IMG/VR virus record: IMGVR_UViG_3300032046_005540
Span: 62,001 to 126,000 of that record
DNA length: 64,000 nt
Origin: a virus
Reading direction: 5' to 3' (one strand)
Below, one piece after another: positions 11,057 to 61,299 of this stretch. The notes under the pieces were generated by a model, which worked only from the letters and a program-made list of their open reading frames with translations, made no database searches and was not told the DNA's origin. Position 1 is the stretch's first letter. Every line of letters starts with the position of its first letter. The position numbers and the translations under genes are program-made.

Positions 11057-11068
11057 ATTAATCTCTCC

Positions 11069-24430: not shown

Positions 24431-25225
24431 TCACTCCTTATTATATTCCTCCATAGTTTTTATATTTTTCAAAGCAAGTTGTAAGATTTCATCTGAAACT
24501 TGGACATTAAAATAATCTTCTGGTCTTTCTGGAACAACAAACTTTGCAGGTAATGTCTCTTTAATATCAATACCTTTAATAGCACATTTAAATGCTGTTG
24601 AAGAATCCACACTTCTAATAAATCCAAAAAGTTTTAAAAATTCAATCTCATGTGGATGACCTCCAATACCTAAACAATGAAAACTTTTACCAGAAGCAAG
24701 TAAATTGAAATGTTGATTAACATAACTTATAACCGTAGGTCTTAAAAGACTTTGAGGTAATTGCCAAAATTCAAAAGTTTTACCTATGGCTCCATACGAA
24801 AAACCTATAGTATCAATCTCTTTAACTTCTAACAATTTCGAAAAACATTCCATATATTCTCTTTCAGTCTTTCCTTGAGGAACTGCCATTAAACTTTTTG
24901 GACGATAACTCTTATTTTCCAAATCATTCAAAGCATCAACAACTCGTTTAATAGTAATTTCTCCATCCAAATAACAATCAGGTAAAACCATTTCAGAAGC
25001 ATGAACTAACTCAACTGCTTTAATAACTTCATCAAGAGGAGCAGCATTTCCATATTCAAATACACCATTATCCATAATGATAAAATCTCCTTTTAAACTT
25101 CTTTCAAGGTATGTTTCCTGATATTTTTTATTTTTTAAAACCTCTTGAGAAATTAACAAATGCATAGAAGAATTTTGATTACAAACTTCTATATAATCAG
25201 CTGGAACAATATGACAAATTTTCAT
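24431..25225 (-). CDS. dpdA: DpdA-like DNA 7-deazaguanine transglycosylase candidate (TGT superfamily)
   Basis: At 264 residues the protein looks like a compact TIM-barrel transglycosylase: FIIMDNGVFEYG at 48-59, VLPDCYLDG at 80-88 with D83, LMAVPQG, DTIGFSYGAIG, LGIGGHPHEI near 200 and RSVDSSTAF. Tandem strands ending in Asp, plus a GxGGxP loop, recall the tRNA-guanine transglycosylase superfamily. Phage DpdA members of it swap guanine in DNA for preQ0. The same genome encodes all steps to preQ0 (35447-39481), which gives such an enzyme its substrate. The family call needs a profile search; the pathway link is inference. Confidence 0.62.
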   Translation of the reverse strand: MKICHIVPADYIEVCNQNSSMHLLISQEVLKNKKYQETYLERSLKGDFIIMDNGVFEYGNAAPLDEVIKAVELVHASEMVLPDCYLDGEITIKRVVDALNDLENKSYRPKSLMAVPQGKTEREYMECFSKLLEVKEIDTIGFSYGAIGKTFEFWQLPQSLLRPTVISYVNQHFNLLASGKSFHCLGIGGHPHEIEFLKLFGFIRSVDSSTAFKCAIKGIDIKETLPAKFVVPERPEDYFNVQVSDEILQLALKNIKTMEEYNKE

Positions 25226-25239
25226 TTTATTTCTTTCTT

Positions 25240-25773
25240 TTATATCATTTTAGATAATTCACAAACTTTTTCAACTCTTCGTTGAATTTCTCCTGTTATT
25301 ATATAATACATATGATGATTATTAAAAGAATAAATTTCATTCAATAATTTTTTAATTTCTCTATCAACATCTTTTTGAAATTGAAAATCTTCATCTCTAA
25401 CACTATCTTTTTCCAAAGAAAACTCTATTGGAATATAAAACACGGCACCTGCAAATTGGTCTCTTTCTATTTGACATAATCTTTTCATAAGATTTATAAC
25501 GGGTTCAGGTAATTTATTACTTATAGCATAAGCAGTTTGTCTTATAATACTATCTACAGAAATAAAACTAGGTTTTCCACATACTTTTTGTAAATATCTT
25601 TGAACTGTTTCTATTTGACTAACAATATCACTTGTTTTATTTATTTGAAACCCTTCTTGCTTTGCTTCACGATGAATTCCATCTATAATTTCACAATAAG
25701 GAAATAACTTTTGAATTTCCTTTGCTAAAGTAGTTTTTCCTGTTCCGTGAGCACCTACTAATAAGATTTTCAT
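25240..25773 (-). CDS. P-loop nucleotide kinase-like protein, 177 aa
   Basis: It begins MKILLVGAHGTGKTT, a Walker A (GAHGTGKT) at residues 7-14, followed by EIIDGIHREA, SVDSIIRQTAY and a C-terminal YYIITGEIQRRVEKV. This layout fits the AAA_28/NadR-like ATPase-kinase group of phage and bacterial proteins. It may phosphorylate a nucleoside, nucleotide or cofactor. It stands between the transglycosylase-like gene and a small membrane protein, close to NDP kinase, so nucleotide metabolism is a fair guess. The substrate cannot be read from sequence. Confidence 0.72.
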   Translation of the reverse strand: MKILLVGAHGTGKTTLAKEIQKLFPYCEIIDGIHREAKQEGFQINKTSDIVSQIETVQRYLQKVCGKPSFISVDSIIRQTAYAISNKLPEPVINLMKRLCQIERDQFAGAVFYIPIEFSLEKDSVRDEDFQFQKDVDREIKKLLNEIYSFNNHHMYYIITGEIQRRVEKVCELSKMI

Positions 25774-30614: not shown

Positions 30615-33134
30615 CTATTCTTTAATTTCTTCCAATTTCCTCCACTTTTCTCCTACTTTAATATCAACTTTCATAGGAACTCTAATAGATCCTTCTATTG
30701 TATTATAACCTCTAACAACTTCTTCTTTTGCTATTTGAACAATAATATTCCTTTCTTCTTTAGGAAATTCATAAATTAAAGAGTCATGCACAGTAAGAAC
30801 TAACCTTATTTTACTATTTAATTGTTGTAATCTTTTATCAACTCGAATAGCAGTTATAGCAGTAATATCTGCAGCCATTGATTGTATTGGACTGTTGACT
30901 GCTTGTCTCATTGCTTCACTTTTATCTTTTTCATCATGCCTCTCCATATTTTTACTCCAAGGAATTTGAGCCGCAGGAAGTCTCCTTATACGTCCAAAAG
31001 CATTTACTACTTCTCCGTACTCCTGAGCTACTTTCTTAATATTAACTATCCATTCTTTTGCTTTTGGATAACGATCAAAAAATATTGTCCTAATGCGTTC
31101 CGCATCTTCCTCAGACATTCCATGTTCTGCAGCCAAACTTTTTGCACCTCTTCCATACATAATCCCAAATGTTGAATTTTTTGCTTGTTGTCTTTCGTCT
31201 TTTGTTATTTCTTCAATTTTTTTATTAAAACAAACAGAAGCCGTTTGTTTATGAACATCTATTCCAGAATTGATTGCTTCTATCATTTTCTTATCGTTCG
31301 AATAATGACCCCAACATTTAAATTCTGCTTGGGCGAAGTCAATTTCACATAATTCATATCCTAGTTCTGCAATAAAACATTCTTTAATAACACTATCTCG
31401 AGGAATGTTTTGTAGGTTAGGATTACTACTACTAAGACGACCAGTTACGGTTCCATCTACATGGTAATCAGTATGAATTCTTCCGTTCTCATCAACTCTT
31501 TCAAGCATTCCAATAACATAAGTGCTCAAAAGTTTACTCAAGTCTCTATGTTCTTTTAATTTAACTAATTCAGGAGATTTATCTATTAAACTATCTAAAA
31601 CTTCTGCGTCTGTAGAAAAACTCTTCTTACCACTTTTTCCTCCCTTAGTCATTTTTATAGGTTCAAATCCAAGAACATTAAATAACAATATTCTCAAATG
31701 ATCAGAAGACCTTAAATTAAAAGAAGTAGGTTTTGTATATTTTTGTATATATTCTTCTTTAGGTAATCTCTTAGATTTTAAACTATCAAATCTTTCTTCA
31801 ATCTTTTTTGCAGACCTATTATATAATGCTTTCTCAACTTTTTTAACCGCATCAGTTCCTCGAAATTCTTCTTCAATTTTTTTCAATCGTTTTTCATATT
31901 CAACTCTTAATTCTTTAAGACGGTCTATATCTAATTTAACTCCATAATATTCTGTTTCTAATAAAACTTTTTGAAAAGGTATAGTAATTTTATTAAATAA
32001 TCTCATTAAACCTTGTTTTTTAAGTTCAAGTTTAAATTTTTGGTAACATCTAAAAGTAGCATCTGCGTCGGCCGCAGAATACTTCCAAAGAACTTCATTT
32101 GATATAACTGCATAGGAAGTATTTTTATTAAGTAGATATTTTGACAACTCTTCATCATATTTCCCCATATCAGGAAAATAACGTAAAACCATTGTATCTA
32201 ATCCATGACCCTCTCTTCCAACATTTTCATCTAACAAATGATGAGCCAACATTGTATCAAATGTAAAATTATTTAATTTAATTTCGTTAGATTTTAAAAA
32301 TTGAATATCAAATGATAAGTTCTGACCTATTTTACCAATATTACTTTCTAAAACTTTTTTCAATTGATCTATTATCCATTTTTTTTCTTCAGGTTTCCAA
32401 AATTCTTGACAATGTTGTTGCAATATAGGAAGAACAACTCCAGTTCTTTCTTTCCAAGAAAAACTACAACATAAAATTTTATCTTTCCAAAAATCTAATC
32501 CAGAAGTTTCAGTATCAAAAGCAAAAATATCAACACTATTTAATTTATCAAAAAACTTTTGAGCTTTTTCTATTGTATCTATAATAACATATTTTGGAGG
32601 ATCAGGCTCTACAGGATTCTTTAACCATTCTACAACATTCTTTAAATGATCAACCATTACTCCTTGTAATCCTAAACGTCTACAAATATATGCTGGATGA
32701 AAAGTAGGCATTATCCAACAATTATATTTTTCACTCCAATGTTTTGTTCCTGCCCAAGAAGTACTACCTTCAAGACCTTGAATAGCTTGTAAAGCAATAC
32801 CTCCCAAAGGAACTATAATTTTAGGTTTTACTTTTTGAATTTCTTCTTCAAGGTATGGAAAACAAGCTTTTATTTCTTCAGGCTCTGGATCTCTATTTTC
32901 AGGAGGACGACATCTAACCGTATTGCTGATGTATAAATATTTTCTATCTAATTTTGCTTCCTTTAAAATAATATCAAGGCGTTTACCAGCAACTCCTACA
33001 AAAGGTTCTTTTTGTAAGTCCTCTTCTTTCCCTGGTGCCTCACCCACTAACATAATATCCACAGGGATAGGACCCACACCTTGAATACAAGGATTTTTAC
33101 AAGTCTTAAACAATTTACATTTATTACAACTCAA
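30615..33134 (-). CDS. Fusion of family 4-like uracil-DNA glycosylase with PolA-type DNA polymerase
   Basis: The start is a TTG at 33134 after GGAGATAAATA. Cys-rich SCNKCKLFKTCKNPC follows directly, as in iron-sulfur uracil-DNA glycosylases. VGEAPGKEED, SNTVRCRPPENRDP and TFHPAY complete that domain (1-185). FAFDTETSGLD at about 205 starts a 3'-5' exonuclease. The polymerase domain has motif A DFAQAEFK, motif B RQQAKNSTFGIMYG and motif C VHDSLIYEFP. The 839-residue protein replicates phage DNA. SPO1-like phages also fuse a glycosylase-like domain to PolA. Motif B has the usual Phe. Confidence 0.95.
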   Translation of the reverse strand: MSCNKCKLFKTCKNPCIQGVGPIPVDIMLVGEAPGKEEDLQKEPFVGVAGKRLDIILKEAKLDRKYLYISNTVRCRPPENRDPEPEEIKACFPYLEEEIQKVKPKIIVPLGGIALQAIQGLEGSTSWAGTKHWSEKYNCWIMPTFHPAYICRRLGLQGVMVDHLKNVVEWLKNPVEPDPPKYVIIDTIEKAQKFFDKLNSVDIFAFDTETSGLDFWKDKILCCSFSWKERTGVVLPILQQHCQEFWKPEEKKWIIDQLKKVLESNIGKIGQNLSFDIQFLKSNEIKLNNFTFDTMLAHHLLDENVGREGHGLDTMVLRYFPDMGKYDEELSKYLLNKNTSYAVISNEVLWKYSAADADATFRCYQKFKLELKKQGLMRLFNKITIPFQKVLLETEYYGVKLDIDRLKELRVEYEKRLKKIEEEFRGTDAVKKVEKALYNRSAKKIEERFDSLKSKRLPKEEYIQKYTKPTSFNLRSSDHLRILLFNVLGFEPIKMTKGGKSGKKSFSTDAEVLDSLIDKSPELVKLKEHRDLSKLLSTYVIGMLERVDENGRIHTDYHVDGTVTGRLSSSNPNLQNIPRDSVIKECFIAELGYELCEIDFAQAEFKCWGHYSNDKKMIEAINSGIDVHKQTASVCFNKKIEEITKDERQQAKNSTFGIMYGRGAKSLAAEHGMSEEDAERIRTIFFDRYPKAKEWIVNIKKVAQEYGEVVNAFGRIRRLPAAQIPWSKNMERHDEKDKSEAMRQAVNSPIQSMAADITAITAIRVDKRLQQLNSKIRLVLTVHDSLIYEFPKEERNIIVQIAKEEVVRGYNTIEGSIRVPMKVDIKVGEKWRKLEEIKE

Positions 33135-34180: not shown

Positions 34181-34542
34181 CTTCCCTCCATCAATAAATT
34201 TACTATTCTAACTATTTCTTCCCAATTGTTTTCAAATCTAACTGCTCGATCATCAATATAAACATCGGCAAATACTTTGCCTTGAGAACCATCATCAACT
34301 TCATCAAAAGGTATATTATTTCTTTCTAAAAAATCTTTTATTATTCTTACTTGAGTAAGTCTTTCTGCTAAATTTGGATGTAATTTCGTATTGGCTCTGC
34401 AAGAAGTTATAATAATATAACATCCTATTTCTTTCAATAGTCTAATACAACGAATAGCATTTTCTTTCAAAGGACCTATATCTGGATATTCATTTTCAAC
34501 TATTGTTCCATCAAAATCTATAGCAACTACAAAAGGTCTCAT
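34177..34542 (-). CDS. HAD-superfamily phosphatase-like protein, 121 aa
   Basis: The N-terminus FVVAIDFDGTIVEN contains the DxDGT motif of HAD hydrolases, with the nucleophile Asp. CYIIITSCRANT gives motif II (Ser/Thr), and VFADVYIDDRAVRF gives the acidic motif IV. Members of this short type remove phosphates from nucleotides or sugars. It overlaps both neighbours by ATGA, so it is translated with dut and the DUF366-like gene. The substrate cannot be told. Confidence 0.8.
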   Translation of the reverse strand: MRPFVVAIDFDGTIVENEYPDIGPLKENAIRCIRLLKEIGCYIIITSCRANTKLHPNLAERLTQVRIIKDFLERNNIPFDEVDDGSQGKVFADVYIDDRAVRFENNWEEIVRIVNLLMEGR

Positions 34543-35108
34543 TGGACTCCTTTCACCTTATAGCAAGCTTCTTGAATATCTCGAAATTCTTTTGTAAATC
34601 TATCCATTAAAATAATAGCAAAAGATTTTACATCATATCCTAAATCAGGAAGATCTTCTAAACCAATAGCTAATACAGGACAATTTTTTCCAACTTTAAT
34701 ATTTAAACCTACATGGATAAGACCTGAAACTGGAGACGAAGTAGCAATAGAAACAGAAAGTTTTTTACAATCAACAAAAATATCATCTCCTTCACGACGA
34801 AGTTTATAAGATTCTGGTATTGTTAAACTTCTTAAAAAATCAATAGTTTGTGTAATAAAAAGTCTTTGCCAAACAACCATTTCTCTTAAAGAAATATCAA
34901 AAATCTCAATTATGAAATGAAGCATACTCTCACTACTAATAAAATCATTCTTTAATCTATCCTCACAATCTACCAAATGTTCTTTAACTTCCGCAGGGCC
35001 TATAAAACTTACAATACTATTTCCTTTTACTCCATGTGCGTAGGCAAAGTGAGAGTGTAATTGAGAACCATCATATTTTATTTCTCCATTTAAAGATCTA
35101 AACTTCAT
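34539..35108 (-). CDS. DUF366-like protein, 189 aa
   Basis: The sequence LHSHFAYAHGVKGNSIVSFIGPAEVKEHLVDCEDRL, followed by SSESMLHFIIEIFD and VWQRLFITQTI, resembles the DUF366 family of bacteria and archaea as I remember it: Gly-(N/D)-Ser-Ile-Val...GP...HLVD..D...S..MLHFI(V/I)E. The function of DUF366 is not established to my knowledge. Here it is set in the preQ0 run between QueC and dUTPase, which suggests work on a purine or pterin, but this is inference. The C-terminal half is beta-rich (LSVSIATSSPVSGLIHVGLNI). Confidence 0.6.
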   Translation of the reverse strand: MKFRSLNGEIKYDGSQLHSHFAYAHGVKGNSIVSFIGPAEVKEHLVDCEDRLKNDFISSESMLHFIIEIFDISLREMVVWQRLFITQTIDFLRSLTIPESYKLRREGDDIFVDCKKLSVSIATSSPVSGLIHVGLNIKVGKNCPVLAIGLEDLPDLGYDVKSFAIILMDRFTKEFRDIQEACYKVKGVQ

Positions 35109-35446: not shown

Positions 35447-36133
35447 TTAAGATATTAAATATTCCAAAGGATCTATTAAACCATTTGCCCTAAATGCTTC
35501 TAATCTCTCAACACAAGCAGAACATTTACCACAAGCTGGTCTTAAACCTTTATAACAAGAATGAGTTAGTTTATAAGGAACACAAAGTTTTATTCCTAAA
35601 GCAACTATTTCTTTTTTAGTCATATCAATAAATGGAGTTTTTATTTCAACTTGAACTCCATGGGTAGAACCTAAACTCAAAGTCTTTTCCAAGGCATCAT
35701 AAAAATCTCTTCTGCAATCTCTATAAACCTCAAAATCTTCTTTCACTGGGGTCATAAAAATTGTTATAGGATTCAAATCTAAAGATTCTCCATATGCTGC
35801 TGCAAGAGTAGCTAACATAGTATTTCTAAAAGGAACTACTGTTTGAATTTGATCTTTCATTTCTTCTGGAACTTTCCAATCCTTATCAGTTAATGCGCTA
35901 TGGCCTATTTGAGCTAAATCAAAATTTAAAATCTTTAAGTCTCCCACTCTTTTTTCTCCATATTTATTTTGATACCTTGCCCAAATAAGCGTTGCTGAAG
36001 TTATTTCAGCAACAGAATGTTTTTGTCCATAGTTAATACTTAAAGGATAAAGCGTCCATCCTTCTTTTAACATATGAGCAAATAATGTAGTAGAATCTAA
36101 ACCACCACTTAAAAGAAATATTCCTTCCTTCAT
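35447..36133 (-). CDS. queC: 7-cyano-7-deazaguanine (preQ0) synthase
   Basis: LLSGGLDSTT is the PP-loop (SGGxDS) of ATP-dependent synthases, and VPFRNTMLATLAAAYGESL is typical of QueC. The C-terminal zinc site is CYKGLRPACGKCSACVER. QueC turns 7-carboxy-7-deazaguanine into preQ0 with ATP and ammonia. The length (228) is normal, with no extra Gat domain as seen in the Gat-QueC fusions some phages use. It is the last of four preQ0 genes in the cluster together with queD, folE2 and queE. Confidence 0.93.
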   Translation of the reverse strand: MKEGIFLLSGGLDSTTLFAHMLKEGWTLYPLSINYGQKHSVAEITSATLIWARYQNKYGEKRVGDLKILNFDLAQIGHSALTDKDWKVPEEMKDQIQTVVPFRNTMLATLAAAYGESLDLNPITIFMTPVKEDFEVYRDCRRDFYDALEKTLSLGSTHGVQVEIKTPFIDMTKKEIVALGIKLCVPYKLTHSCYKGLRPACGKCSACVERLEAFRANGLIDPLEYLIS

Positions 36134-36135
36134 TT

Positions 36136-36603
36136 TTAGTTCTCCTTCTCATATGGAAATTTAATCCAAACATCTTTATCTTCACTTGCAGCAAAATAAT
36201 CAGGATCAAATTTTGAATTCTTTTTATAAAATAATACAGAAGTCCGAATGTTTTTGAACCCTTTTTTTCTATATAAATCCACAACGGCTTTCATCGTTTC
36301 TCCTGAATCTACTAATTCATCTACAATCAAAATTCTGCTTTCTTTTATAACATCAGGGAAACACAAATAAGACGGAGATCCTATTTTTAATTTAGATTGT
36401 TTATTTTCTTTAGTATAAGAACTTGTAACAACAATATCTAAAGGAATATTCCAACTATGAGACATAAAAAGTGCTGGAATAATACCCCCGCGAGAAATTC
36501 CCACAACAAGATCAAACTTTTCCTGAGCTTTGTTAGATATAATATCTATAAGGCGGTCAACTAACTGAAAGTAATATTCCCAAGAAATTTCTTCTTTTTT
36601 CAC
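36136..36603 (-). CDS. Purine-type phosphoribosyltransferase
   Basis: LVVGISRGGIIPALFMSH and ILIVDELVDSGETMKAV are the two signatures of type I phosphoribosyltransferases, the second being the PRPP-binding loop. The hood and length (155) resemble xanthine/guanine enzymes (Gpt). It would salvage a purine base with PRPP. Sitting between queC and queE, it may feed GTP for FolE2 or act on a deazapurine base; neither is shown by the sequence. Confidence 0.82.
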   Translation of the reverse strand: MKKEEISWEYYFQLVDRLIDIISNKAQEKFDLVVGISRGGIIPALFMSHSWNIPLDIVVTSSYTKENKQSKLKIGSPSYLCFPDVIKESRILIVDELVDSGETMKAVVDLYRKKGFKNIRTSVLFYKKNSKFDPDYFAASEDKDVWIKFPYEKEN

Positions 36604-37274
36604 TAAACACCTCTTTTATCTTTATCCCAAATTATTTTATGCATTTGAAGACTATACCGAACGTCTAATTGATCCTTCAAAATCCATTCTGCTAATGTTT
36701 TTGGATCCATCTTTCCCCAAACAGGAGAAAATACATATTGTTCTTGTTTTATTGTTTGAGAATTATATTTTAATATAACCATTTTCGCATAGTCATAATC
36801 TTCCCTGTCCCCAATAATAAACTTTATTTCATCACACGGACGAAGATAATAAAAATTTGTCCAACACATTCCTTTTTCCATTCCAGAAAAAGGACATTTT
36901 ACATCCATACAAACAACACTAATATAAGGAATATATTTATAAATAGAAAGACTACCATTAGTTTCAAGAATAATATCTTTATCTAATTCTTTATTTATAA
37001 ACTTAACAAGATCAAAACAATTTGGAGACTGGAGAGGCTCCCCACCGGATAATAAAACTCTTTTACAATAACGATATTTACTTATTTCTGATGCTATTTT
37101 ATTGAACGTCATTATCTTTCCTTCTTTATAAGCCCATTTGCTGTCACAAAAAGAACAACGTAGATTACAGCCTGTTAACCTAACAATAACAACAGGCAAT
37201 CCTTTAGTTTTACCTTCTCCAGAAAATGTATAATATATTTCATTAACTTTTATCCTTTTTGTTCCTTCTTTCAT
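36603..37274 (-). CDS. queE: 7-carboxy-7-deazaguanine synthase (radical SAM)
   Basis: The start YYTFSGEGKTKGLPVVIVRLTGCNLRCSFCDSKWA contains the radical SAM CX3CX2C cluster motif and the FSGEG lead of QueE. VLLSGGEPLQSP and LETNGSL are further QueE landmarks. It rearranges 6-carboxy-tetrahydropterin to 7-carboxy-7-deazaguanine. The gene overlaps RNase HII by ATGA. The 223-residue length is normal. Confidence 0.92.
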   Translation of the reverse strand: MKEGTKRIKVNEIYYTFSGEGKTKGLPVVIVRLTGCNLRCSFCDSKWAYKEGKIMTFNKIASEISKYRYCKRVLLSGGEPLQSPNCFDLVKFINKELDKDIILETNGSLSIYKYIPYISVVCMDVKCPFSGMEKGMCWTNFYYLRPCDEIKFIIGDREDYDYAKMVILKYNSQTIKQEQYVFSPVWGKMDPKTLAEWILKDQLDVRYSLQMHKIIWDKDKRGV

Positions 37275-37906
37275 TTAATTATTCCCTCCTCCAACCAAGT
37301 TTTAATAGGATCAAACGTTTTTCTATGAAATGGAGTAATACCATATTTTCTAATTGCTTCAATATGTTTCTTAGTTCCATATCCAACATTTGTTTTCCAA
37401 CCATACTTTTCATATTCAGGAAACTGATCAACTAAACTTTTTATATACCTATCTCTTAATACCTTAGCAATAACAGAAGCAGCCATAATAGAAGGTTCTT
37501 TTTCATCTCCTTTTATTATCCATATTTGATGTTCAAAAGGAATATTTAAAAGTTGTTTTTGATTATATAATTTACCGTCTATCAAAACAGTATCAGAAAT
37601 TGTTTTACCTGCTGTTTGTAGTTTTGGAAGAACTTCAAAAATTGCTCTTTGCATAGCTAACCTTGTTACATTAAGAATATTTTTTTCATCTATTTCTTGT
37701 ATGTTTGCAGAACCAGTTGCAAAAACAAGACCAAAATCTTTAAACTTTTGAAAAAGGTCTTCTCGTTGTTTCAAAGTTAATTTTTTAGAATCATTTAATC
37801 CATCAAAAGAAGGGTAAGATTCCCACAAAACAGCACCAGCAACTACGGGCCCTGCCAAGCACCCTCTTCCAACTTCATCACACCCAATTACAGAATTTAA
37901 TTTCAC
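37271..37906 (-). CDS. rnhB: Ribonuclease HII
   Basis: The best start is the GTG at 37906 with AGGAGG nine bases upstream (211 residues); a longer frame runs into the neighbour. VIGCDEVGRGCLAGPVVAGAV contains the catalytic DE, KEPSIMAASVIAKVLRD the later acidic and Ser site, and GITPFHRKTF the typical end. The enzyme cuts RNA in RNA-DNA hybrids, for example primers. It sits inside the queuosine gene run, between queE and folE2, perhaps simply by operon shuffling. Confidence 0.92.
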   Translation of the reverse strand: MKLNSVIGCDEVGRGCLAGPVVAGAVLWESYPSFDGLNDSKKLTLKQREDLFQKFKDFGLVFATGSANIQEIDEKNILNVTRLAMQRAIFEVLPKLQTAGKTISDTVLIDGKLYNQKQLLNIPFEHQIWIIKGDEKEPSIMAASVIAKVLRDRYIKSLVDQFPEYEKYGWKTNVGYGTKKHIEAIRKYGITPFHRKTFDPIKTWLEEGIIK

Positions 37907-37907
37907 T

Positions 37908-38231
37908 TTACTTCCTCCTAAATTTTTTAAATTCTGAAGCTCGATATCTTCCAATCTCTTTATCAAGAGCAATTTCTAATGTTTTTTCTTTCGAAATAAC
38001 TTCAACCGGAGAAGTATCTATACTATATCCATCCCACGTTGTAAGAATTTCTTTTTCTTTACACCTATCACAACACATCGCAAATTCTAATTGCAATGGT
38101 TTTTTTCCTTCCTTTCTAAACTTTTCCTCTTCTTCTTCAGTTAAAGGGCTTAAACATACTTGATCCATTTCACAAAACTTTTTACGTTTCCTACAAAACT
38201 CACAAGTTATTAAAACATCATTATAACTCAT
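37908..38231 (-). CDS. Cys-rich hypothetical protein, 107 aa
   Basis: CEFC (C10, C13), a C20 and CCDRC near residue 53 make a probable zinc site. A Glu-rich stretch (LTEEEEEKFRKEGKKP) sits between them, and the tail is basic. It lies between folE2 and rnhB. No family recognised. The stop codon includes the ribosome binding site of rnhB, so the two are coupled. Confidence 0.65.
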   Translation of the reverse strand: MSYNDVLITCEFCRKRKKFCEMDQVCLSPLTEEEEEKFRKEGKKPLQLEFAMCCDRCKEKEILTTWDGYSIDTSPVEVISKEKTLEIALDKEIGRYRASEFKKFRRK

Positions 38232-38232
38232 T

Positions 38233-39033
38233 TTAGAAATCCCAATTCTTTTTAAAATATGCTACTGCATTATGTTCATGGATGCTTTCATATGACATTA
38301 CTTTAATACTATATCCCTCAATGCCAGATATTTTATTTAAAGCAATAGCAACATCTCTTGCTACATCCTCTACAAATTTTGGATTTTTAAATGCCTTTTC
38401 CGTAACCCATTTTTCATCTGGGCGTTTTAAAACAGGATAAATATCGCAACTTCCCATTGACTCAATCAAAGAAACAACATCTTCAATCCATAAAGGTTTA
38501 CCTAAAAACTTCAATCTTGCAGTTACTATTGCTCTCTGATTATGAGCACCATATTTACTTATTGCTTTACTACAAGGGCATAAAGTAGTTATTGGAACTG
38601 AAACTTCAAGGTAAAAATCATATTTATTAGATGTTAATCGACCTACAAAAGCACAAGAATACCCTTGGATCCCATTTACTCTTTTTACTGGAGATTCTTT
38701 AGGAATAAAATATTTAAACCTAAAAACAGCATAAGCGTCCTTTGTTTTAAGTTTTCTTTTTAACTCTTCTAAAAATACTCTTAACTTTCTTGAATTTATT
38801 GTTTTATAACGATATTGCATTAAAACCTCAGAAAACCTTGACATATTAATCCCTCTAATCTCTTTCTCAAGGTCTCCATACATTGAAACAATCGCTTGAG
38901 TTGTTTGATATTGTCTCTTTTGTTTTTTAGCAACTAATATAGGAAAACTAACATCTTCAATACCTACTCTATAAAGAGGCACTCCTCGTTTATCTTTTAA
39001 CGCTTGAATATCCGGTAATTGTTCTTCAACCAT
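38233..39033 (-). CDS. folE2: GTP cyclohydrolase FolE2 (type IB)
   Basis: The preferred start is the ATG at 39033 after AAGGAG (266 residues); a longer frame enters queD. LPDIQALKDKRGVPLYRVGIEDV and CPCSKAISKYGAHNQRA, with a metal-binding Cys, are FolE2 hallmarks. HEHNAVAYFK ends the protein. It converts GTP to dihydroneopterin triphosphate, the first step to preQ0 and folate. Type IB enzymes can use metals other than zinc. Gene order queD-folE2 then queE-queC gives the whole route from GTP to preQ0. Confidence 0.93.
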   Translation of the reverse strand: MVEEQLPDIQALKDKRGVPLYRVGIEDVSFPILVAKKQKRQYQTTQAIVSMYGDLEKEIRGINMSRFSEVLMQYRYKTINSRKLRVFLEELKRKLKTKDAYAVFRFKYFIPKESPVKRVNGIQGYSCAFVGRLTSNKYDFYLEVSVPITTLCPCSKAISKYGAHNQRAIVTARLKFLGKPLWIEDVVSLIESMGSCDIYPVLKRPDEKWVTEKAFKNPKFVEDVARDVAIALNKISGIEGYSIKVMSYESIHEHNAVAYFKKNWDF

Positions 39034-39052
39034 AGCTTCTCCTTCCAATTTT

Positions 39053-39481
39053 TTATTCTCCATATATAGCACTCGATTTAGGACCTTCAAACACTTCAAC
39101 ACTTATAAGTTTAACAGGATAAAACTCAGATTGAAAATTGTAAAACAAAAATTGTGCCATATGTTCTGCCGTAGGATTTCCTTGCATAGGATAAATTTGT
39201 TGCCCTTGATCTTTTGAAATAACATTCTGACAATGTAAAATTTCTATAAGAGGATCAGCAAAATTCAATATAAGTCCATGATCCCAATGTTGATCAATCC
39301 ATCCTTGAATTACTTTTTTTACAACAGAAAAATCAACTACCATTCCATCTTTATTAAGATCTTCACTCTCAAATGTAAAAATAGCACGCCAAGAATGGCC
39401 ATGGATACGCCCGCAAGGTCCTTCATAATTTAATAACCTGTGAGCCGCATCCCATTTAACTTCCTTAGCAATCTTAAACAT
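39053..39481 (-). CDS. queD: 6-carboxy-5,6,7,8-tetrahydropterin synthase
   Basis: FKIAKEVKWDAAHRLLNYEGPCGRIHGHSW shows the zinc His residues and the catalytic Cys (GPCGRIHGH) of QueD. DGMVVDFSVVK, HWDHGLIL and PTAEHMAQFL follow as in the family. It makes 6-carboxytetrahydropterin from dihydroneopterin triphosphate. Length 142 is a little above the usual 120. The start overlaps the sigma-like gene by 8 bases, so the preQ0 genes follow it directly. Confidence 0.93.
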   Translation of the reverse strand: MFKIAKEVKWDAAHRLLNYEGPCGRIHGHSWRAIFTFESEDLNKDGMVVDFSVVKKVIQGWIDQHWDHGLILNFADPLIEILHCQNVISKDQGQQIYPMQGNPTAEHMAQFLFYNFQSEFYPVKLISVEVFEGPKSSAIYGE

Positions 39482-42890: not shown

Positions 42891-43628
42891 TTATTCACTT
42901 TTTTTAGACTTTGGAAAGTTTACAAAAAATGGCATCGCAACATCAAAAGTAAGTCTTGGATCTTTAAAACTTTTAACTACTTCATAATAAGATTTCAAAG
43001 GCATTCCATTCCACTTTTTTTCATTCCACAACTTATTTAACTTTGTACCCTTTGCAGGCCTACAATACATTGCGTGAACTTGAATAATATTAGGAAGAGA
43101 CAAAGATTGTTCTAATGATTCTCTAAACTCCTTTATAGCAGTTTCATTATCTGTTACATAAGGTTTTGCTAATATATAAATAATATACTCAAAATTTCTA
43201 TTTTCACTAACTAACTTTTTTACATCTTCAAAATCAAAACCCTTTCCAATCTCTTTACTTCTATTAGGAAATACCGTCTCTAAACCAATACAAACTTCCA
43301 TTTCAATTTCAGGTTTTTCATTTGGAATAAATTCAGGTCTTGATTCTACTCTTAATTTTTTAACGCCATTTTCTTTTAAATACTTGATAACATCTCTCCA
43401 AGAAACTTGCATTTGTTCTAAATCAAAAAAGGATCCAGAATTAAAAATTCTAAAGTATTCAGGATACCCTCCATATGTTTCTTTACATGTTTTGAATTGG
43501 TCCCAAATATCTTCAGGAGTTGTTTCTGGATCCGTATCTTTTTTGAATCCACAGAAAATGCATCTACCCCATCTACAAGGCTTTACTCTTAAGCAAATTG
43601 TATTTTTATCCATCCAAACACATTTCAT
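42891..43628 (-). CDS. RaSEA-like radical SAM protein (archaeosine formation)
   Basis: CX4CX2C at C18, C23 and C26 (PCRWGRCIFCGF) is a radical SAM cluster site. NSGSFFD (63-69), VESRPEF (94-100), IGLET (114-118) and GKGF (128-131) match the conserved string of the archaeal RaSEA family (SGSFLD, ESRPEF, IGLET, KGF) as I know it. In archaea RaSEA partners with ArcS to make archaeosine in tRNA from a lysine adduct of preQ0. An ArcS-like gene lies just upstream. At 245 residues it is shorter than archaeal members. A DNA target is inference. Confidence 0.8.
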   Translation of the reverse strand: MKCVWMDKNTICLRVKPCRWGRCIFCGFKKDTDPETTPEDIWDQFKTCKETYGGYPEYFRIFNSGSFFDLEQMQVSWRDVIKYLKENGVKKLRVESRPEFIPNEKPEIEMEVCIGLETVFPNRSKEIGKGFDFEDVKKLVSENRNFEYIIYILAKPYVTDNETAIKEFRESLEQSLSLPNIIQVHAMYCRPAKGTKLNKLWNEKKWNGMPLKSYYEVVKSFKDPRLTFDVAMPFFVNFPKSKKSE

Positions 43629-43773
43629 TCATATCCTCCCTCTCTTCTAATCTCCTCAACTCAATATCTATCTCTTTAAGTTTTTTACTTTTTTTATCAA
43701 GTTCTTTTTCCAAATGAACAATTTGAAGTTCTAATTGACCTTTCTTTCTTTTCAAACAATTGTAGTCTTTCAT
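43606..43773 (-). CDS. Small coiled-coil protein, 55 aa, between ArcS-like and RaSEA-like genes
   Basis: The start overlaps the ArcS-like stop (ATGA). The product is a charged helix (KRKKGQLELQIVHLEKELDKKSKKLKEIDIELRRLEE) with no motif. Its end overlaps the RaSEA-like start by 23 bases. It could be a linker subunit of the pair or an accidental open frame; coiled-coil regularity and coupling favour a real gene. Confidence 0.48.
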   Translation of the reverse strand: MKDYNCLKRKKGQLELQIVHLEKELDKKSKKLKEIDIELRRLEEREDMNEMCLDG

Positions 43774-44561
43774 ATTATCCCCTTTATTTTTTCAGCTTCG
43801 GTAGGAGTATCAATCCCACACAATTTAATAATTTCTAAAAATGGTTCATACCTATGAAAATTCCTATATTCGTCAAATTTATTAATTGAAAAATACTTTT
43901 TACATCTTAAATAAACTTGCCACAAATCCGGATACGAATTATTATATTTAAGAACAAACGGATGTTCCCAAAATTCTTCAGGAACTACTCCAATAGTAGT
44001 AATTACTACTTTATAATATTCGTCTAAATTTTCTATTTTCGCATATATCTCCTTATGAGTTTTTGAAGTGTTATAAGGTCTTTCAGCAGAACAAGACAAA
44101 AGTAAACATTTCTTTTTATCAGTTTTAAAACTACTCATTTGATCTAACAATTCACGAATATACAACCTATTATAAGAATGGAAACTTGATACCATTATCT
44201 TTTTATCTTCAGGTAAAATATCTTTAGTAACCCCTTTCAAATCAACTTGCATTAGAATATCAGAACAAATAGGAGTAAAAGAAGCAAACATTTCTATTAA
44301 ATCACGAAGACAACCTTTTTCTTTTGCCCTCTCTATCCAATTCAAAATTTCTTCAATAGAATAAATAGACCATAATCCATAATTAATATCTTTGTGAACA
44401 CTTTCTTTTTCAACCTCATGACCAAAATAAATCAAAAACGGAACTTGACTTAATGGTGCGTTCTTTACAAACCACTTCTCTTTCAACCCACGAGAAGCAA
44501 AAGATTTGAGTGCGGTTCCATTATAAACAAAAGGATATTTTTTAAAATCAACGGTTTTCAT
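43770..44561 (-). CDS. ArcS-like (DUF5591) protein, archaeosine synthase family
   Basis: The key motif is CSAERPYNTSKTH at 157-169. It corresponds to the ArcS signature PC-x3-KPY-x2-S-x2-H (C157, RPY 161-163, S166, H169), with Arg for Lys and Ser before the Cys. VVITTIGVVPEEF and YPDLWQVYLRCKKYF follow, as in the DUF5591 domain. Archaeal ArcS adds lysine to preQ0 in tRNA. This protein lacks room for the PUA domain of archaeal ArcS, so tRNA may not be its target. The gene is followed by a radical SAM partner, and preQ0 is made by neighbouring genes. Confidence 0.75.
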   Translation of the reverse strand: MKTVDFKKYPFVYNGTALKSFASRGLKEKWFVKNAPLSQVPFLIYFGHEVEKESVHKDINYGLWSIYSIEEILNWIERAKEKGCLRDLIEMFASFTPICSDILMQVDLKGVTKDILPEDKKIMVSSFHSYNRLYIRELLDQMSSFKTDKKKCLLLSCSAERPYNTSKTHKEIYAKIENLDEYYKVVITTIGVVPEEFWEHPFVLKYNNSYPDLWQVYLRCKKYFSINKFDEYRNFHRYEPFLEIIKLCGIDTPTEAEKIKGII

Positions 44562-52615: not shown

Positions 52616-53386
52616 TCACTTTATTTCTTTAAGATGATTAAACATAGATTGAGGAATCGATAAGTAAACACCATCTACAATATTTTTAACAACATCAATA
52701 ACCTTATTTGCTTGCAGTAAAGTATAAGTTGTAAAATCTTTATCCGAAATCTCTTTAAATGTATTTAAATAATCTTCAGGAATAACAACACCAGGAATTT
52801 TTGATAAATTATCTAAATGATTTTTAGATTTTGGAATCATTATACCTAATAACACAGGTAAATTATATGGTTCTATTTCTTTTAAAAATTTTAATGCTTG
52901 ACTTATAGTAAATACAGGTTGCGTTTGAAGGTAATCAGCACCAGCATCTATTTTACTTTGTAAATATTTGTGATCTATATTATTCGGATCTACGGCAACA
53001 CCAACCAAAATATTATAAGACTTTACTAACTTAATTACATCAACTATACACGCCCCACTCCAAAATCCTTTACTATGAGGATCCCCAGATAAAACAAGTA
53101 TTATATTTACACCAATTGATGCTGCCTGAAGCATATCAGATCTTATTATAACTTCAGATCTCCCAGAAAGAGGATAATGAACAATTACTTTAAAGCCTTC
53201 GGATATCAAATATTGTGCAGTATAAAGAGCTGGTAATTTAGGTTTTCCCATTGGATTAGAAACAACACTAATAGTATCAATACCTACTTCTTTAAGTATT
53301 TTAATATGTTGAGATAGTTCTTTTAAATTTCCACTACCCGGAGGAATAATTTCAACAACTTTTGTAAAATTTGAAAACAATTTCAT
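52616..53386 (-). CDS. Methylenetetrahydrofolate reductase-like protein
   Basis: A TIM-barrel protein with EIIPPG at 12-17 (E12 matches the catalytic Glu of MTHFR), the LSGDPH loop at 99-104 and KIDAGADYLQTQPVF at 145-159, the three landmarks of the MTHFR family. The family reduces 5,10-methylene-THF to 5-methyl-THF with FAD, feeding methionine and SAM. The GDPH has His where GDP(P) is normal. It stands at the end of a gene run with several SAM methyltransferases, so it may support methyl supply (inference). It overlaps the CgeB-like gene by ATGA. Confidence 0.82.
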   Translation of the reverse strand: MKLFSNFTKVVEIIPPGSGNLKELSQHIKILKEVGIDTISVVSNPMGKPKLPALYTAQYLISEGFKVIVHYPLSGRSEVIIRSDMLQAASIGVNIILVLSGDPHSKGFWSGACIVDVIKLVKSYNILVGVAVDPNNIDHKYLQSKIDAGADYLQTQPVFTISQALKFLKEIEPYNLPVLLGIMIPKSKNHLDNLSKIPGVVIPEDYLNTFKEISDKDFTTYTLLQANKVIDVVKNIVDGVYLSIPQSMFNHLKEIK

Positions 53387-54372
53387 ATTTGCCTCATTAC
53401 TTCTAAATATTGGTTAACTCTAGTGGTAATTGTATGATTTTTCATTACTTCTTCCTGACCACATTTTGCTATTTGTTCTCTTTCATCGTCATGTTCTAAA
53501 TAATATATAACTTTAAATTTTAAATCTTCAATTGTTCCATCATAAGTTACTAAATGTTTCCCAGGAATAAAAAACTTTTCAAGATTATCCATAGGAGGAC
53601 AAATGAAAAAACATCCACAACCCATTGCTTTAAAAATTCTATCCGAAATTTTCCAACCCATATTATCTTTTATTACATGAAGAGTATCAAATGTTATTTT
53701 AGATTGCCTATAAACATTAGTCATTTCAGAACCATAAAGACATTGGTCGGAAGAATTTTCAGATATATTTCCAATAACCTTAACTTTACAAAAATCTTTT
53801 AAAGTATTAATACATTCCTCTCTCCTAAAAATGTTACGGCCTCTTTGCGAATTGCCTATAAAACAAATGTCATAAATTTCATAATTAGTATCTAACCTTT
53901 CAATTAAAGGTTTATAATATGTTTGATCATAATATTGGGGCAAAAACACTGCATTTTTTGCATAATCTTTTAATATTTCTGCCATTCCTTCAACTGATGT
54001 TATAATTAAATCAAATACTCCTTTATATCTACCCCAATATCCTAAATCATTTTTTGGTTTATAAGCATCAGCATTCCATAAAACTAACTTAAATCCCAAT
54101 TGTGATATTTTTTCAAAAAACTCTCTTGGTTCAACTCCTGCTCCAGTTACAAATACATAATCTGGATTAAATAATTTTACTGATTCAACCATATGAGTTT
54201 CATAGTTATATTTGGCAGTACCAGGAGGCAAAGGATGTTCATAGGGTAAACATCTTTCTGGCTCAATTAAACATTTAACTAAAACTTCATAGCCCAAATC
54301 TTTCATTTCCCGAGCAATCAAAAGACCATTTTGATAAGGCAAATTACAATAAACAAATGTTACTATTTTCAA
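53383..54372 (-). CDS. CgeB-like glycosyltransferase, paralogue 1
   Basis: The protein has an N-terminal Rossmann-like half (KLVLWNADAYKPKNDLGYW; TSVEGMAEILKDY) and a C-terminal GT-B half with DRIFKAMGCGCFFICPPMD, LEKFFIPGKHLVTYDG and a repeat-like EDLKFKVIYYLEHDDEREQIA. That C-terminal pattern is the Glyco_trans_1_2/CgeB signature. It shares this with the genes at 55391-56347 and 56344-57285. Acceptor and sugar are unknown. ATGA overlaps with both neighbours show tight coupling. Confidence 0.78.
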   Translation of the reverse strand: MKIVTFVYCNLPYQNGLLIAREMKDLGYEVLVKCLIEPERCLPYEHPLPPGTAKYNYETHMVESVKLFNPDYVFVTGAGVEPREFFEKISQLGFKLVLWNADAYKPKNDLGYWGRYKGVFDLIITSVEGMAEILKDYAKNAVFLPQYYDQTYYKPLIERLDTNYEIYDICFIGNSQRGRNIFRREECINTLKDFCKVKVIGNISENSSDQCLYGSEMTNVYRQSKITFDTLHVIKDNMGWKISDRIFKAMGCGCFFICPPMDNLEKFFIPGKHLVTYDGTIEDLKFKVIYYLEHDDEREQIAKCGQEEVMKNHTITTRVNQYLEVMRQI

Positions 54373-55394
54373 AAATCACCCCCATCAATCACTTTTTGAA
54401 AAACATCTAAATACTGGGATTTTAAAACATTCCAAGAAAATTTATTCTCAATAATTTCTCTATTCCTTTTAGATACTTCTTTTAAATCAATGTTCATTAC
54501 AAAATTTATCTTAAAAACGAAATCATCTAAATCTGGTTCATAAACAACCTTTTCTTCACCAAAATGTGAATTATTTTTAACTTTTATAAGAAATTTTTTA
54601 TCTTCAACAACTTCATTCATTGGAGGAGCATCAGTTGTTATAACAGGAAAACCACAAGCCATTGCTTCATATATAGGAAGGCCATTTCCTTCAAAATGTG
54701 ATGGTGCTAAATAAATATCTCCTTCTTTATAAAGATCCATTATTTCAGGTTTTTCACCTACTCTTAAATCAACACCCTCAAGGCAGCCATATTTTTCAAG
54801 AGGAACTTGAGAATTTATAATTAACTTCACCTTCTCTTTATCTAACTTTTGAAAAGCTCTTAAAACTAAATCAGTACCTTTTCTTTTAAAATCTACATAA
54901 CCAGCATTATGTAATAATACTTTGTTTTCCCCTCTTTGAATAAATTTAAAATAATCTGTATCAATAGGATAAGGTAAATAATAACATTTCCATCCTTTAG
55001 ATTTTATTATATTATAACTCCACTTATTAACACAAAGCCACAAATCTACAAAATCTTTATACTTTTCAAGAATAGGTGTTCTTACACTATCTAACATAGG
55101 AATATAAACAATTTTAATTCCTTTTTCTTTTAAAATTTTTAAATAATCCCAACAAAAAGGATATTCTATTATCAAAACAACATCTAAACCAAAATTTATA
55201 AATTTTTCTAAAGCTTCTTTACTCAGATTTTCTTTTGAAGTTATTACAAAACTACATCTTAAATCATTTAAATTAGTGCCTTTTGCTTCCCATCTTATAA
55301 CAAGTTGACTATTAATTTCAAGATGTTTCCTAAAAAATTTTAACATTACTCCTAAACCAGAGTTATTAGCATATCCTATTGTGCCTATTCTCAT
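54369..55394 (-). CDS. GT4-family glycosyltransferase
   Basis: LLHNAGYVDFKRKGTDLVLRAFQKL and HFEGNGLPIYEAMACGFPVITTD contain the two landmarks of GT4 enzymes: the Gly-rich nucleotide loop and the E-x7-E element (E...E). The second Glu is in EAMACG. It transfers a sugar from a nucleotide-sugar with retention. It lies between two CgeB-like paralogues and is coupled to both by ATGA overlaps. The acceptor is unknown. Confidence 0.82.
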   Translation of the reverse strand: MRIGTIGYANNSGLGVMLKFFRKHLEINSQLVIRWEAKGTNLNDLRCSFVITSKENLSKEALEKFINFGLDVVLIIEYPFCWDYLKILKEKGIKIVYIPMLDSVRTPILEKYKDFVDLWLCVNKWSYNIIKSKGWKCYYLPYPIDTDYFKFIQRGENKVLLHNAGYVDFKRKGTDLVLRAFQKLDKEKVKLIINSQVPLEKYGCLEGVDLRVGEKPEIMDLYKEGDIYLAPSHFEGNGLPIYEAMACGFPVITTDAPPMNEVVEDKKFLIKVKNNSHFGEEKVVYEPDLDDFVFKINFVMNIDLKEVSKRNREIIENKFSWNVLKSQYLDVFQKVIDGGDF

Positions 55395-56347
55395 AATTTT
55401 AGTTTTTTCTTAATAATTGAAAGGTATCTACCAACACTTTTATCAATAGTATATTTATCAAAAATTTCTTTTTGCCCTTTTAATGCTATCTTTTCTCTCG
55501 CATCTTCGTGTTTTAAATAATAATCAATTTTCTCTAACATTTCTTCTTTAGTATGAAAAACATCAAGATGTTTTTTAAGAATAAAAAGCTCTTCAATTCC
55601 TGGAATATATTCAGTTAAAAGAAAACATCCACATCCCATAACCTGATACATTCTAACAGAAAATTGTAGGTTGTAATTTAATTCTCCTCCAGAAATCATA
55701 TTCAAACCTATTTTAGATTTCTTATAACAATCTGCTATAAATTTTCCATCATAATTAATAACACTTCCTAAAGAACTAAATCCCCATCCAACAATTATTG
55801 TTCTATATCCCTTTTTAACTATTTCTTTAAGGTATTCTTCTCTTTGTAGAGAACAAGGCGTTTTATTACCTACAAAAATAACATCATCTGCTTTTGCTAA
55901 AATATTATCTGATTTATAATAAGTATGATCAAAAAAATGAGGACTCCAAACAACTTTATCTGTATAAGGTTTTGCAATCTCAATATGCCCTTTCATTGTA
56001 GTTATAAATAAATCAATAATATCAAACGCTTCTAAAAATAAATGTTTTGAATTTTTTTGATTAAGCCAATAAGCATCTGGATGCCATATTACAATTTTTG
56101 CTCCCAAACTTTTTAAACATTTAATAATATCAAAGCCTCGATTTATTCCTCCAGTCTGAAATACAAAATCAGGTTTAAATTCTAAATAAAGAATTCTAAT
56201 TTGTTCTGCTGATTGATCAAAAAATCCAATAACAATTTCATGCCCTTGTCTTTTTAACTCTTCTACAATTCTAATACCATCCTGATATTCATTCAAACCA
56301 TTGCAAGTTTTAAAAGGAAACCTTTTTACAATCACTAATATCTTCAT
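55391..56347 (-). CDS. CgeB-like glycosyltransferase, paralogue 2
   Basis: The N-terminal half has VIVKRFPFKTCNGLNEYQDGIRIVEELKRQGHEI and ending FVFQTGG, and the C-terminal half SVRMYQVMGCGCFLLTEYIPGIEELF with KIDYYLKHEDAREKIALKGQ. It is clearly paralogous to the next upstream gene: both carry FQTG, PHYFD-like PHFFDHTYYK and MGCGCFLLTEYIP. This suggests a local duplication. Likely makes part of a repeating glycan. Function by family only. Confidence 0.78.
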   Translation of the reverse strand: MKILVIVKRFPFKTCNGLNEYQDGIRIVEELKRQGHEIVIGFFDQSAEQIRILYLEFKPDFVFQTGGINRGFDIIKCLKSLGAKIVIWHPDAYWLNQKNSKHLFLEAFDIIDLFITTMKGHIEIAKPYTDKVVWSPHFFDHTYYKSDNILAKADDVIFVGNKTPCSLQREEYLKEIVKKGYRTIIVGWGFSSLGSVINYDGKFIADCYKKSKIGLNMISGGELNYNLQFSVRMYQVMGCGCFLLTEYIPGIEELFILKKHLDVFHTKEEMLEKIDYYLKHEDAREKIALKGQKEIFDKYTIDKSVGRYLSIIKKKLKL

Positions 56348-57285
56348 AAATATACTCTCTTTTTAATTACATCTAAATATTGATTTACACGGGCATCAAT
56401 GTCATGTTTTTCCATTACCTCTTGATATCCTTGTATAGCTATTTTTTCTCTAATCTTTGGATGTTCCAAATAATAATCAATTTTTTCTATCATTTCTTCT
56501 TTAGTATGGAAAACATCGAGGTGAACTCCAGGAATAAACATTGTTTCAATATTAGGAATGTATTCAGTTAAAAGGAAACATCCACTTCCCATAACTTGAT
56601 ACACTCTAACTGAAAATTGTAAATCACAATTAAATATACCTCCAGAAACTATATTTAATCCTATTTTAGAACTTTTATATGCTTTCGCAATATGCTCTCC
56701 ATTCCAATCTGCTTTAGTTTCTTCATCATTAATAGTAAAACCATGCCCGACAACTTTTAACTTATACTTTTTCTCAAGCTCTTTTAAATATTCTTCTCTT
56801 TGAGGAGATGCTTCAGTTTTTCCTCCAATAAAACAAATGCCATTTTCTTGCTTAATATTCTTATTTGTTTTAAAAAAAGTTGAATCAAAATAGTGAGGAG
56901 CCCAAACTACCTTATCAGTATAAGATTTTGAAACTTCAACATGACCTCTCATTGTAACTAAAAACAAATCAAACACGTTAAAAGCATCTAAAAAATAAGA
57001 TCTGGAAGGTTCTCTAAATAACCAATAAGCATCAGGATACCACATTACTAATTTTGCACCTAAATCTTTTAAACTATTTTGAACTCCAAGGTTACCTTTT
57101 GAATGTCCCATTCCTGTTTGAAATACAAAATCAGGCTGAAATTTTCTATATCTTGATATATAATCTTCTATTGATTTTCCAAAAGAAGCAGTATGAGTTT
57201 CATGACCCAATCGAGATAACGACTCTTGTATTCGTATTCCATCAGAAAAAGAATTTTTAGTTTCTATGATTAACATTATTTTCAT
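56344..57285 (-). CDS. CgeB-like glycosyltransferase, paralogue 3
   Basis: The preferred start is the ATG at 57285 (313 residues), which follows AGAAGG and the FkbM-like gene stop; a longer frame enters that gene. The GT-B C-terminal half shows VRVYQVMGSGCFLLTEYIPNIETMF and KIDYYLEHPKIREKIAIQGYQ. Compared with paralogue 2 the strings PDAYW, DLFxTTMKGH/DLFLVTMRGH and VVWxPHxFD are shared. Probably a sister enzyme adding a similar sugar. Confidence 0.78.
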   Translation of the reverse strand: MKIMLIIETKNSFSDGIRIQESLSRLGHETHTASFGKSIEDYISRYRKFQPDFVFQTGMGHSKGNLGVQNSLKDLGAKLVMWYPDAYWLFREPSRSYFLDAFNVFDLFLVTMRGHVEVSKSYTDKVVWAPHYFDSTFFKTNKNIKQENGICFIGGKTEASPQREEYLKELEKKYKLKVVGHGFTINDEETKADWNGEHIAKAYKSSKIGLNIVSGGIFNCDLQFSVRVYQVMGSGCFLLTEYIPNIETMFIPGVHLDVFHTKEEMIEKIDYYLEHPKIREKIAIQGYQEVMEKHDIDARVNQYLDVIKKRVYL

Positions 57286-57287
57286 AT

Positions 57288-58034
57288 TTACATACCTTCT
57301 ACAAAAGGATCTACATCTCTCCATAAGAGTAAAATACATGGCCAATCTTTAGTTTTATTCATTAATTGTTTACTAGATCTTAAATCAATTATACCATCCT
57401 TACATATTCTACCATATGAAAAACCTAATTTTTCAACTAAATTAAAAAATTGTAATTCAGTAAAACCAGCTAATTCGTAATGACGATTACTGAGTTCACA
57501 CACCATTACTAATTTAGAACTGCGATTAATAAGATTTTGAAGTCCTTCAATTACCCCAACCTCAGCACCATCTACAACAATTTTAATAAAATCTGCTTTC
57601 TCAACATTTTGTAAAATATCATCTCCAACAGCTACTTCTAAATCTAATTCTTTTTTATTTTTATAATAAGAAACTCCAGTCTTATTATGTAATCCAAAAT
57701 TAAAAGGTTTAATATTTTTATATAATTCTGAATTCTTTACAAGAACCTCATAAGTACCGAAAAATGGTTCAAAAGCATAAATAATTCCTGTTTCTCCTAT
57801 TTTTTGAGAAGCCATTACAGAATATATTCCTACATTTGCACCAACATCAATACAAGTCATTCCTGGTTTTAAATATTTACCTACAACATCAAGTTTTTCA
57901 TTTTCATAAGTACCTAACTTAATACATTTGCTAACAAAATAATCACTACCCACTCTAACTTTTTCATCTTTTTTGGCTTCATCATCTTTATCAAGAAGCC
58001 ACATTTTTCCTACAAAAGTATCAACTAATTCCAT
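57288..58034 (-). CDS. FkbM-family SAM methyltransferase
   Basis: The preferred start is the ATG at 58034 (AAGGAG site, 248 residues). TCIDVGANVGIYSVMASQKIG is the SAM-binding motif I, and ADFIKIVVDGAEVGVIEGL (FkbM-typical IKIDVEG variant) follows. FkbM enzymes O-methylate sugars or other hydroxyls. It lies between a CgeB-like glycosyltransferase gene and two related class I methyltransferases, so it probably decorates the same glycan. The frame overlaps nothing important. Confidence 0.83.
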   Translation of the reverse strand: MELVDTFVGKMWLLDKDDEAKKDEKVRVGSDYFVSKCIKLGTYENEKLDVVGKYLKPGMTCIDVGANVGIYSVMASQKIGETGIIYAFEPFFGTYEVLVKNSELYKNIKPFNFGLHNKTGVSYYKNKKELDLEVAVGDDILQNVEKADFIKIVVDGAEVGVIEGLQNLINRSSKLVMVCELSNRHYELAGFTELQFFNLVEKLGFSYGRICKDGIIDLRSSKQLMNKTKDWPCILLLWRDVDPFVEGM

Positions 58035-58045
58035 TATTATTCTCC

Positions 58046-58786: not shown

Positions 58787-58803
58787 TATTTTACTCCTCT
58801 TAT

Positions 58804-60770: not shown

Positions 60771-60783
60771 TTTTTCTTTCCTT

Positions 60784-61287: not shown

Positions 61288-61299
61288 TCTTTTTTTTCT

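Follow-up and report, generated by a model that had tools for sequence, protein, structure and literature searches.

A window of 64,000 nucleotides (bases 62001–126000) of the viral record IMGVR_UViG_3300032046_005540 (168,267 bp), to which all coordinates below refer unless stated otherwise, carries a run of genes for the predicted synthesis of preQ0, together with genes for a transglycosylase of the TGT/DpdA superfamily and for relatives of the archaeal enzymes ArcS and RaSEA. In combination, these genes probably constitute a virus-encoded DNA base modification pathway whose product would be 2'-deoxyarchaeosine (dG+). FolE2, QueD, QueE and QueC would convert GTP to preQ0, which the transglycosylase would exchange for guanine in the virus DNA, after which the ArcS core would join lysine to the preQ0, and cleavage of this adduct by the RaSEA-like enzyme would give dG+. 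The displaced guanine would be converted to GMP by a phosphoribosyltransferase (PRT), refilling GTP, which is the substrate of FolE2 as well, and a DUF366 protein would assist at the QueC stage. The individual reactions, their order, DNA as the substrate and dG+ as the product are predicted from homology. The outcome would be restriction-resistant virus DNA, a protection that has been published for 7-deazaguanine-type DNA bases (PMC6884629). The virus, probably a tailed virus of bacteria, is thus likely to conceal its DNA from the defences of its host, along a route for which no viral precedent has been described: the preQ0 run itself is of a known kind, and what is new is that a virus combines ArcS with a RaSEA-like enzyme. 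If this holds, archaeal tRNA chemistry would have been moved into virus DNA, and the ArcS–RaSEA pair in a bacterial virus would account for a complete conversion to dG+. The analysis also points to three partners, namely the PRT, the P-loop protein encoded beside the transglycosylase, and DUF366. The G+C content is 30%, and the presence of Shine-Dalgarno sequences, an L,D-transpeptidase, a sigma-factor-like protein and a DnaG-type primase suggests that the host is a bacterium.

The original prediction for this DNA held that FolE2, QueD, QueE and QueC form a complete GTP-to-preQ0 set, and this was confirmed: all four genes are full length and lie in one tight run on the minus strand, and direct inspection of the sequences found their active-site motifs intact, with no losses. 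The motifs comprise CPCSKAISKYGAHNQR in FolE2, AAH...CGRIHGH, WDH and EVFEGP in QueD, the cluster motif CX3CX2C (CNLRCSFC) in QueE, and SGGLDSTT together with the four-Cys site SCYKGLRPACGKCSAC in QueC. The E-values obtained for the genes of the run (Table 1) are far from chance, and the four-gene set is predicted to synthesise preQ0 from GTP. In transcription order, the run consists of QueD, FolE2, a small open reading frame (ORF), RNase HII, QueE, PRT, QueC, a second small ORF, DUF366, a HAD-like gene and a dUTPase-like gene. Between 33.5 and 45.8 kb, adjacent genes overlap or are at most 29 nt apart, which makes their cotranscription likely. RNase HII is regarded as an interleaved replication gene and is not thought to be part of the pathway. 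Because GGAAGGAG stands just before an ATG at 39033 in the FolE2 frame, as expected of a Shine-Dalgarno sequence and start codon, the FolE2 start was placed there, and the true gene probably comprises positions 38233–39033 (266 amino acids).

That FolE2 takes the place of FolE was borne out by Pfam, NCBIfam and PDB matches. The accompanying suggestion that this choice may allow work without zinc is weak: the CxxxHGH motif of QueD and the four-Cys motif of QueC, which are zinc sites in these families, are both kept, so that FolE2 alone would not free the pathway from zinc. Among 61 virus clusters carrying the transglycosylase family (see below), FolE was present in 39 and FolE2 in six, which makes FolE2 a minority yet repeated choice in viruses; FolE2 matches in two Staphylococcus phage records were not relied on.

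Although right about the preQ0 set, the original prediction had overlooked how the pathway ends, since it included neither the transglycosylase (g116), which is encoded several kilobases from the run, nor the ArcS/RaSEA pair (42891–44561); nor had it identified the DNA as viral. The g116 gene was located by means of the gene order in Flavobacterium phage immuto and Cellulophaga phage phiST, combined with BLASTP (E 2e-14 against the annotated DNA guanine transglycosylase of immuto and 3e-16 against phiST gp042). When its AlphaFold2 model (predicted local distance difference test score, pLDDT, 96.6) was compared with the PDB using Foldseek, all 50 of the matches listed were TGT structures, the best being the Z. 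mobilis enzyme (E 2.4e-7, probability 1.00, template modelling score of about 0.6 by query). Residues D52, N53, Q117, R162, H183, G186 and D207 are invariant across 37 members of the g116 family. Alignment of this family with the DpdA family of Escherichia phage 9g by hhalign (E 3.9e-6) placed DNGVF over DSGAF and VDSST over CDSSS, which we take to be the general-base and nucleophile regions of TGT. Given the TGT fold, conserved catalytic-type Asp residues and a QG base-site motif, g116 can be assigned to the TGT/DpdA superfamily; its action on DNA is predicted, and no DpdA subfamily is claimed. For the survey of the family, 80 loci were retained from at least 479 and collapsed at 90% identity, yielding the 61 virus clusters. 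PreQ0 genes were found in the fetched flanks of 50 of these clusters and near the g116 relatives in 27 of the 30 loci that span 14 kb or more, with loci chosen by sequence pattern and not by context, and with two of the five seed proteins derived from annotated preQ0 phages. Comparison of sequences or structures in this manner established the families, the intact motifs, the TGT fold, the synteny and the recurrent associations.

The two finishing enzymes are encoded close together, with only a 55-codon ORF between their genes. The ArcS gene product appears to be an ArcS core and not a full ArcS: both ArcS equivalog models matched it (2.3e-14, over about 130 residues), its score against the full-length equivalog was 52.9 bits (cut-off 440), and profile models detected no PUA domain in it, which makes a targeting of tRNA less likely. 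The region of the ArcS signature, which is of the type PCX3KPYX2SX2H, as seen in the archaeal protein AF0587, reads SCSAERPYNTSKTH in this virus and PCSAKRPYNVSKTH in the related virus contig G001 (73 kb), and AF0587 aligns with the viral protein at this position. Both genes are kept in G001 (75% identity for ArcS and 68% for the RaSEA-like protein). In T. kodakarensis, ArcS moves lysine onto preQ0 in tRNA, after which RaSEA completes archaeosine (G+) (PMC11298593). The finishing pair would be the same as in the euryarchaeal ArcTGT–ArcS–RaSEA pathway, but the viral ArcS is, according to the models, without most of the TGT-like part and without PUA, and its partner is a DNA-type transglycosylase. 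The presence of this pair makes archaeosine in DNA, and not preQ0 or queuosine, the likely end product.

Several observations weigh against the proposed pathway. Pfam TGT and NCBIfam DpdA models detected no transglycosylase in the genome, an absence that is distrusted because the DpdA model barely detected the DpdA of 9g and missed that of Dp-1. The matches to ArcS span the DUF5591 part only, and within the signature Ser replaces Pro and Arg replaces Lys, with PC kept in G001. The RaSEA-like protein scored 105 bits against TIGR01210 (cut-off 212) and had queuine lyase as its best PDB match, for which reasons it may instead be a radical SAM lyase with some other function. Furthermore, ArcS and RaSEA are absent from a second, partial relative (G002, 107 kb) that carries the preQ0 set and the transglycosylase, so that the corresponding virus may stop at preQ0. 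This last finding would also fit an alternative in which only the deoxy form of preQ0 (dPreQ0) is made in DNA, with ArcS and RaSEA playing only a minor part and with a precedent in Vibrio phage nt-1. The latter (FolE, QueD, QueE, QueC, DpdA2, ArcS) likewise has a DUF5591 ArcS core beside its preQ0 genes (26% identity to the viral ArcS described here), yet its DNA contains mainly dPreQ0 with some, albeit little, dG+ (PMC6884629). It differs, however, in that no RaSEA match was obtained in nt-1, which could explain the low dG+ content there, whereas here a RaSEA-like gene lies beside ArcS and is conserved along with it in G001; we therefore regard the formation of dPreQ0 alone as unlikely. An ArcS core without RaSEA and a DNA with mostly dPreQ0 fit a need for both enzymes, although a single phage is no proof.

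Table 1. Features of the window discussed in the text, with predicted functions and supporting matches.
Feature	Position	Strand	Evidence
QueD, 6-carboxytetrahydropterin synthase	39053-39481	-	Pfam PTPS 3.5e-30; TIGR03367 QueD 8e-23
FolE2 (GTP cyclohydrolase IB)	38233-39102	-	Pfam GCHY-1 E 1.6e-80; NCBIfam FolE2 above cut-off; PDB FolE2 1.4e-53
QueE	36603-37274	-	Radical SAM 7.5e-13; PHROG QueE-like 2.9e-35; NCBIfam QueE TIGR04349 1.5e-59
QueC, preQ0 synthase, no fused Gat domain	35447-36133	-	Pfam QueC E 4e-53; TIGR00364 at its cut-off
Short DpdA/TGT-superfamily transglycosylase g116 (264 amino acids), predicted preQ0 insertion into DNA	24431-25225	-	Homology, fold, synteny
ArcS core (DUF5591), predicted lysine transfer to preQ0	43770-44561	-	Pfam DUF5591 1.3e-8, above cut-off
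RaSEA-like radical SAM protein, predicted lysine-adduct cleavage to G+	42891-43628	-	TIGR01210 RaSEA 4.4e-30; CRWGRCIFC cluster motif
Gpt-like 6-oxopurine PRT, predicted guanine salvage	36136-36603	-	Pfam 4.5e-22; PDB archaeal purine PRT 6.7e-18
DUF366, biotin/lipoate-ligase-like fold, putative QueC-linked accessory	34539-35108	-	Pfam 3.3e-54
P-loop kinase-like protein beside g116	25240-25773	-	Pfam AAA_28 9.6e-9
RNase HII	37271-37972	-	Pfam 3.4e-31
Cys-rich ORF (107 amino acids)	37908-38231	-	No family match
Family A DNA polymerase, N-terminal uracil-DNA-glycosylase-like part	30615-33134	-	Similarity to uracil-DNA glycosylase protein of L014

No RaSEA was detected by tblastn among 50,697 phage records, nor by profile in the phages with a 7-deazaguanine DNA pathway that were examined (VH7D, CP21, HCTV-16, immuto, phiST, 9g, Youna2, BSP7 and nt-1); searches of the literature yielded nothing relevant on phage RaSEA, phage PRT with DpdA, DUF366 or COG2029. 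The general plan, in which a preQ0 set and DpdA lead to dG+ in DNA, is shared with 9g (FolE, QueD, QueE, Gat-QueC, DpdA). However, 9g employs FolE, Gat-QueC and a longer DpdA, in place of which the present virus has FolE2, a plain QueC, a short and distant DpdA, and separate ArcS and RaSEA-like genes. Known dG+ phages use Gat-QueC, whereas here no Gat is fused to QueC.

The original prediction had also listed the PRT as an unassigned partner, and it proved to be a real one, adjoining preQ0 or DpdA genes in unrelated viruses too. It was found in 17 of the 61 clusters, and in 16 of these it is no more than 181 bp away from a preQ0 or transglycosylase gene, mostly in an overlapping stop-to-stop frame; it is thus a recurrent partner of the pathway. 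The unrelated virus L014 has the order QueD-QueE-PRT-FolE2-UDG-QueC (with UDG denoting uracil-DNA glycosylase). Phages immuto and phiST have the transglycosylase family and the PRT in common with this virus but possess FolE instead of FolE2 and show no ArcS or RaSEA match; the PRT of immuto, which also has QueF, lies between QueE and FolE, and that of phiST is apart from the preQ0 genes of this phage, in the neighbourhood of its ribonucleotide reductase gene. Since the PRT accompanies a base-exchanging enzyme, a recycling of the guanine displaced by DpdA is the simplest role for it, and one towards which we lean slightly. The main alternative is that the PRT acts on preQ0 instead of guanine. 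Its product, the preQ0 ribonucleotide, would then be converted by ArcS and RaSEA to a free G+ nucleotide and enter DNA through a kinase, a reductase and a polymerase, independently of base exchange. Such a route would suit the finding that ArcS accepts the preQ0 nucleoside and, efficiently, its 5'-monophosphate but not the preQ0 base (PMC11298593), the fact that in many viruses the preQ0 run encloses the PRT gene, and the P-loop kinase-like gene adjoining the transglycosylase. Nevertheless, we consider it improbable: a bypass is unnecessary because the transglycosylase is present and the PRT co-occurs with its family, the reported Km of ArcS for the monophosphate is high (433 μM; PMC11298593), and in alignment the PRT keeps the Gpt-type residues, namely VDELVDSGET (phosphoribosyl pyrophosphate loop), YKK (Lys) and WIKFPYE (Trp-Ile base site). 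An early idea, according to which the PRT substitutes for a missing DpdA, was weakened once DpdA was found.

Of the readings considered, the least probable is that the set boosts the modification of host tRNA (queuosine, or archaeosine in tRNA) and not that of virus DNA. Archaeosine tRNA is not known from bacterial hosts; moreover, a DNA-type transglycosylase family is represented, the ArcS core has no PUA domain, and no QueF match was obtained. In its favour, preQ0 is a precursor of queuosine too, and a function of this kind was proposed by Hutinet et al. for phages that are without DpdA.

As regards DUF366, the prediction of a partnership was sound, as this gene recurs beside QueC in bacteria, but it had been placed within positions 35447–39481 and lies outside them (Table 1). 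Foldseek comparison of its AlphaFold2 model (pLDDT 94) returned 2ddz (uncharacterised) first, followed by LplA/BPL lipoate and biotin protein ligases (E 4e-7 to 1e-5). This match points to an LplA/BPL-like fold, and K116, which is invariant in 26 sequences, can be placed at the ligase lysine position by motif resemblance; that DUF366 carries out an adenylation or ligation reaction near the QueC stage is a guess. In 29 of 51 bacterial loci, DUF366 and QueC are no more than 150 bp apart, and in 33 of the 51 some preQ0 gene lies at this distance or closer, so that DUF366 is a candidate for a missing player in queuosine metabolism. Bdellovibrio is among the many bacteria in which it adjoins QueC (loci L149–L199). 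Its use as a substitute for QueF was rejected, as QueF is also present in nine of 12 DUF366 genomes. A match in Microcystis phage MaAM05 (L023, MW495066.1) was discounted, as the genes around it are bacterial; the stretch seen of this record contains FliM, SecDF, FabI and similar genes and looks bacterial or contaminated.

The run is kept in both G001 and G002, with about 50–78% identity for most genes and only 26% for the QueE of G002. Eight genes syntenic with it (59–78% identity) were found on a 5.2-kb contig (L148) binned in a Cloacimonadota metagenome-assembled genome. This contig is a near relative of the virus and gives a hint as to which hosts it infects, with the caveat that contigs may be binned wrongly. 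The proposition that the P-loop gene beside g116 is homologous to every transglycosylase neighbour failed, though its relatives occur near the transglycosylase gene in eight of the 61 virus clusters; in several viruses (L103, L107, L113, L116, L133), such relatives are situated directly upstream of QueF. The uracil-DNA glycosylase within the preQ0 run of L014 (L014:10828–11394) is a stand-alone protein, whereas the virus described here has the related domain as a fused part of its polymerase. An N6/N4 DNA methyltransferase is encoded at 14741–15475, and in L011 a distant relative (L011:11483–12268) separates QueE from the PRT. The region 52616–63915 (genome 114.6–140.7 kb) encodes proteins of 240–470 amino acids with glycosyltransferase, methyltransferase and aminotransferase matches; it is conserved in G002 and may represent a sugar or surface-structure module. 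Finally, seven ORFs (263–368 amino acids) match a single G001 gene (10171–11088) and form a multi-copy paralog family, whose members are the genome ORFs g003, g014, g090 (window 2949–3776), g094 (11069–12064), g199, g214 and g216.

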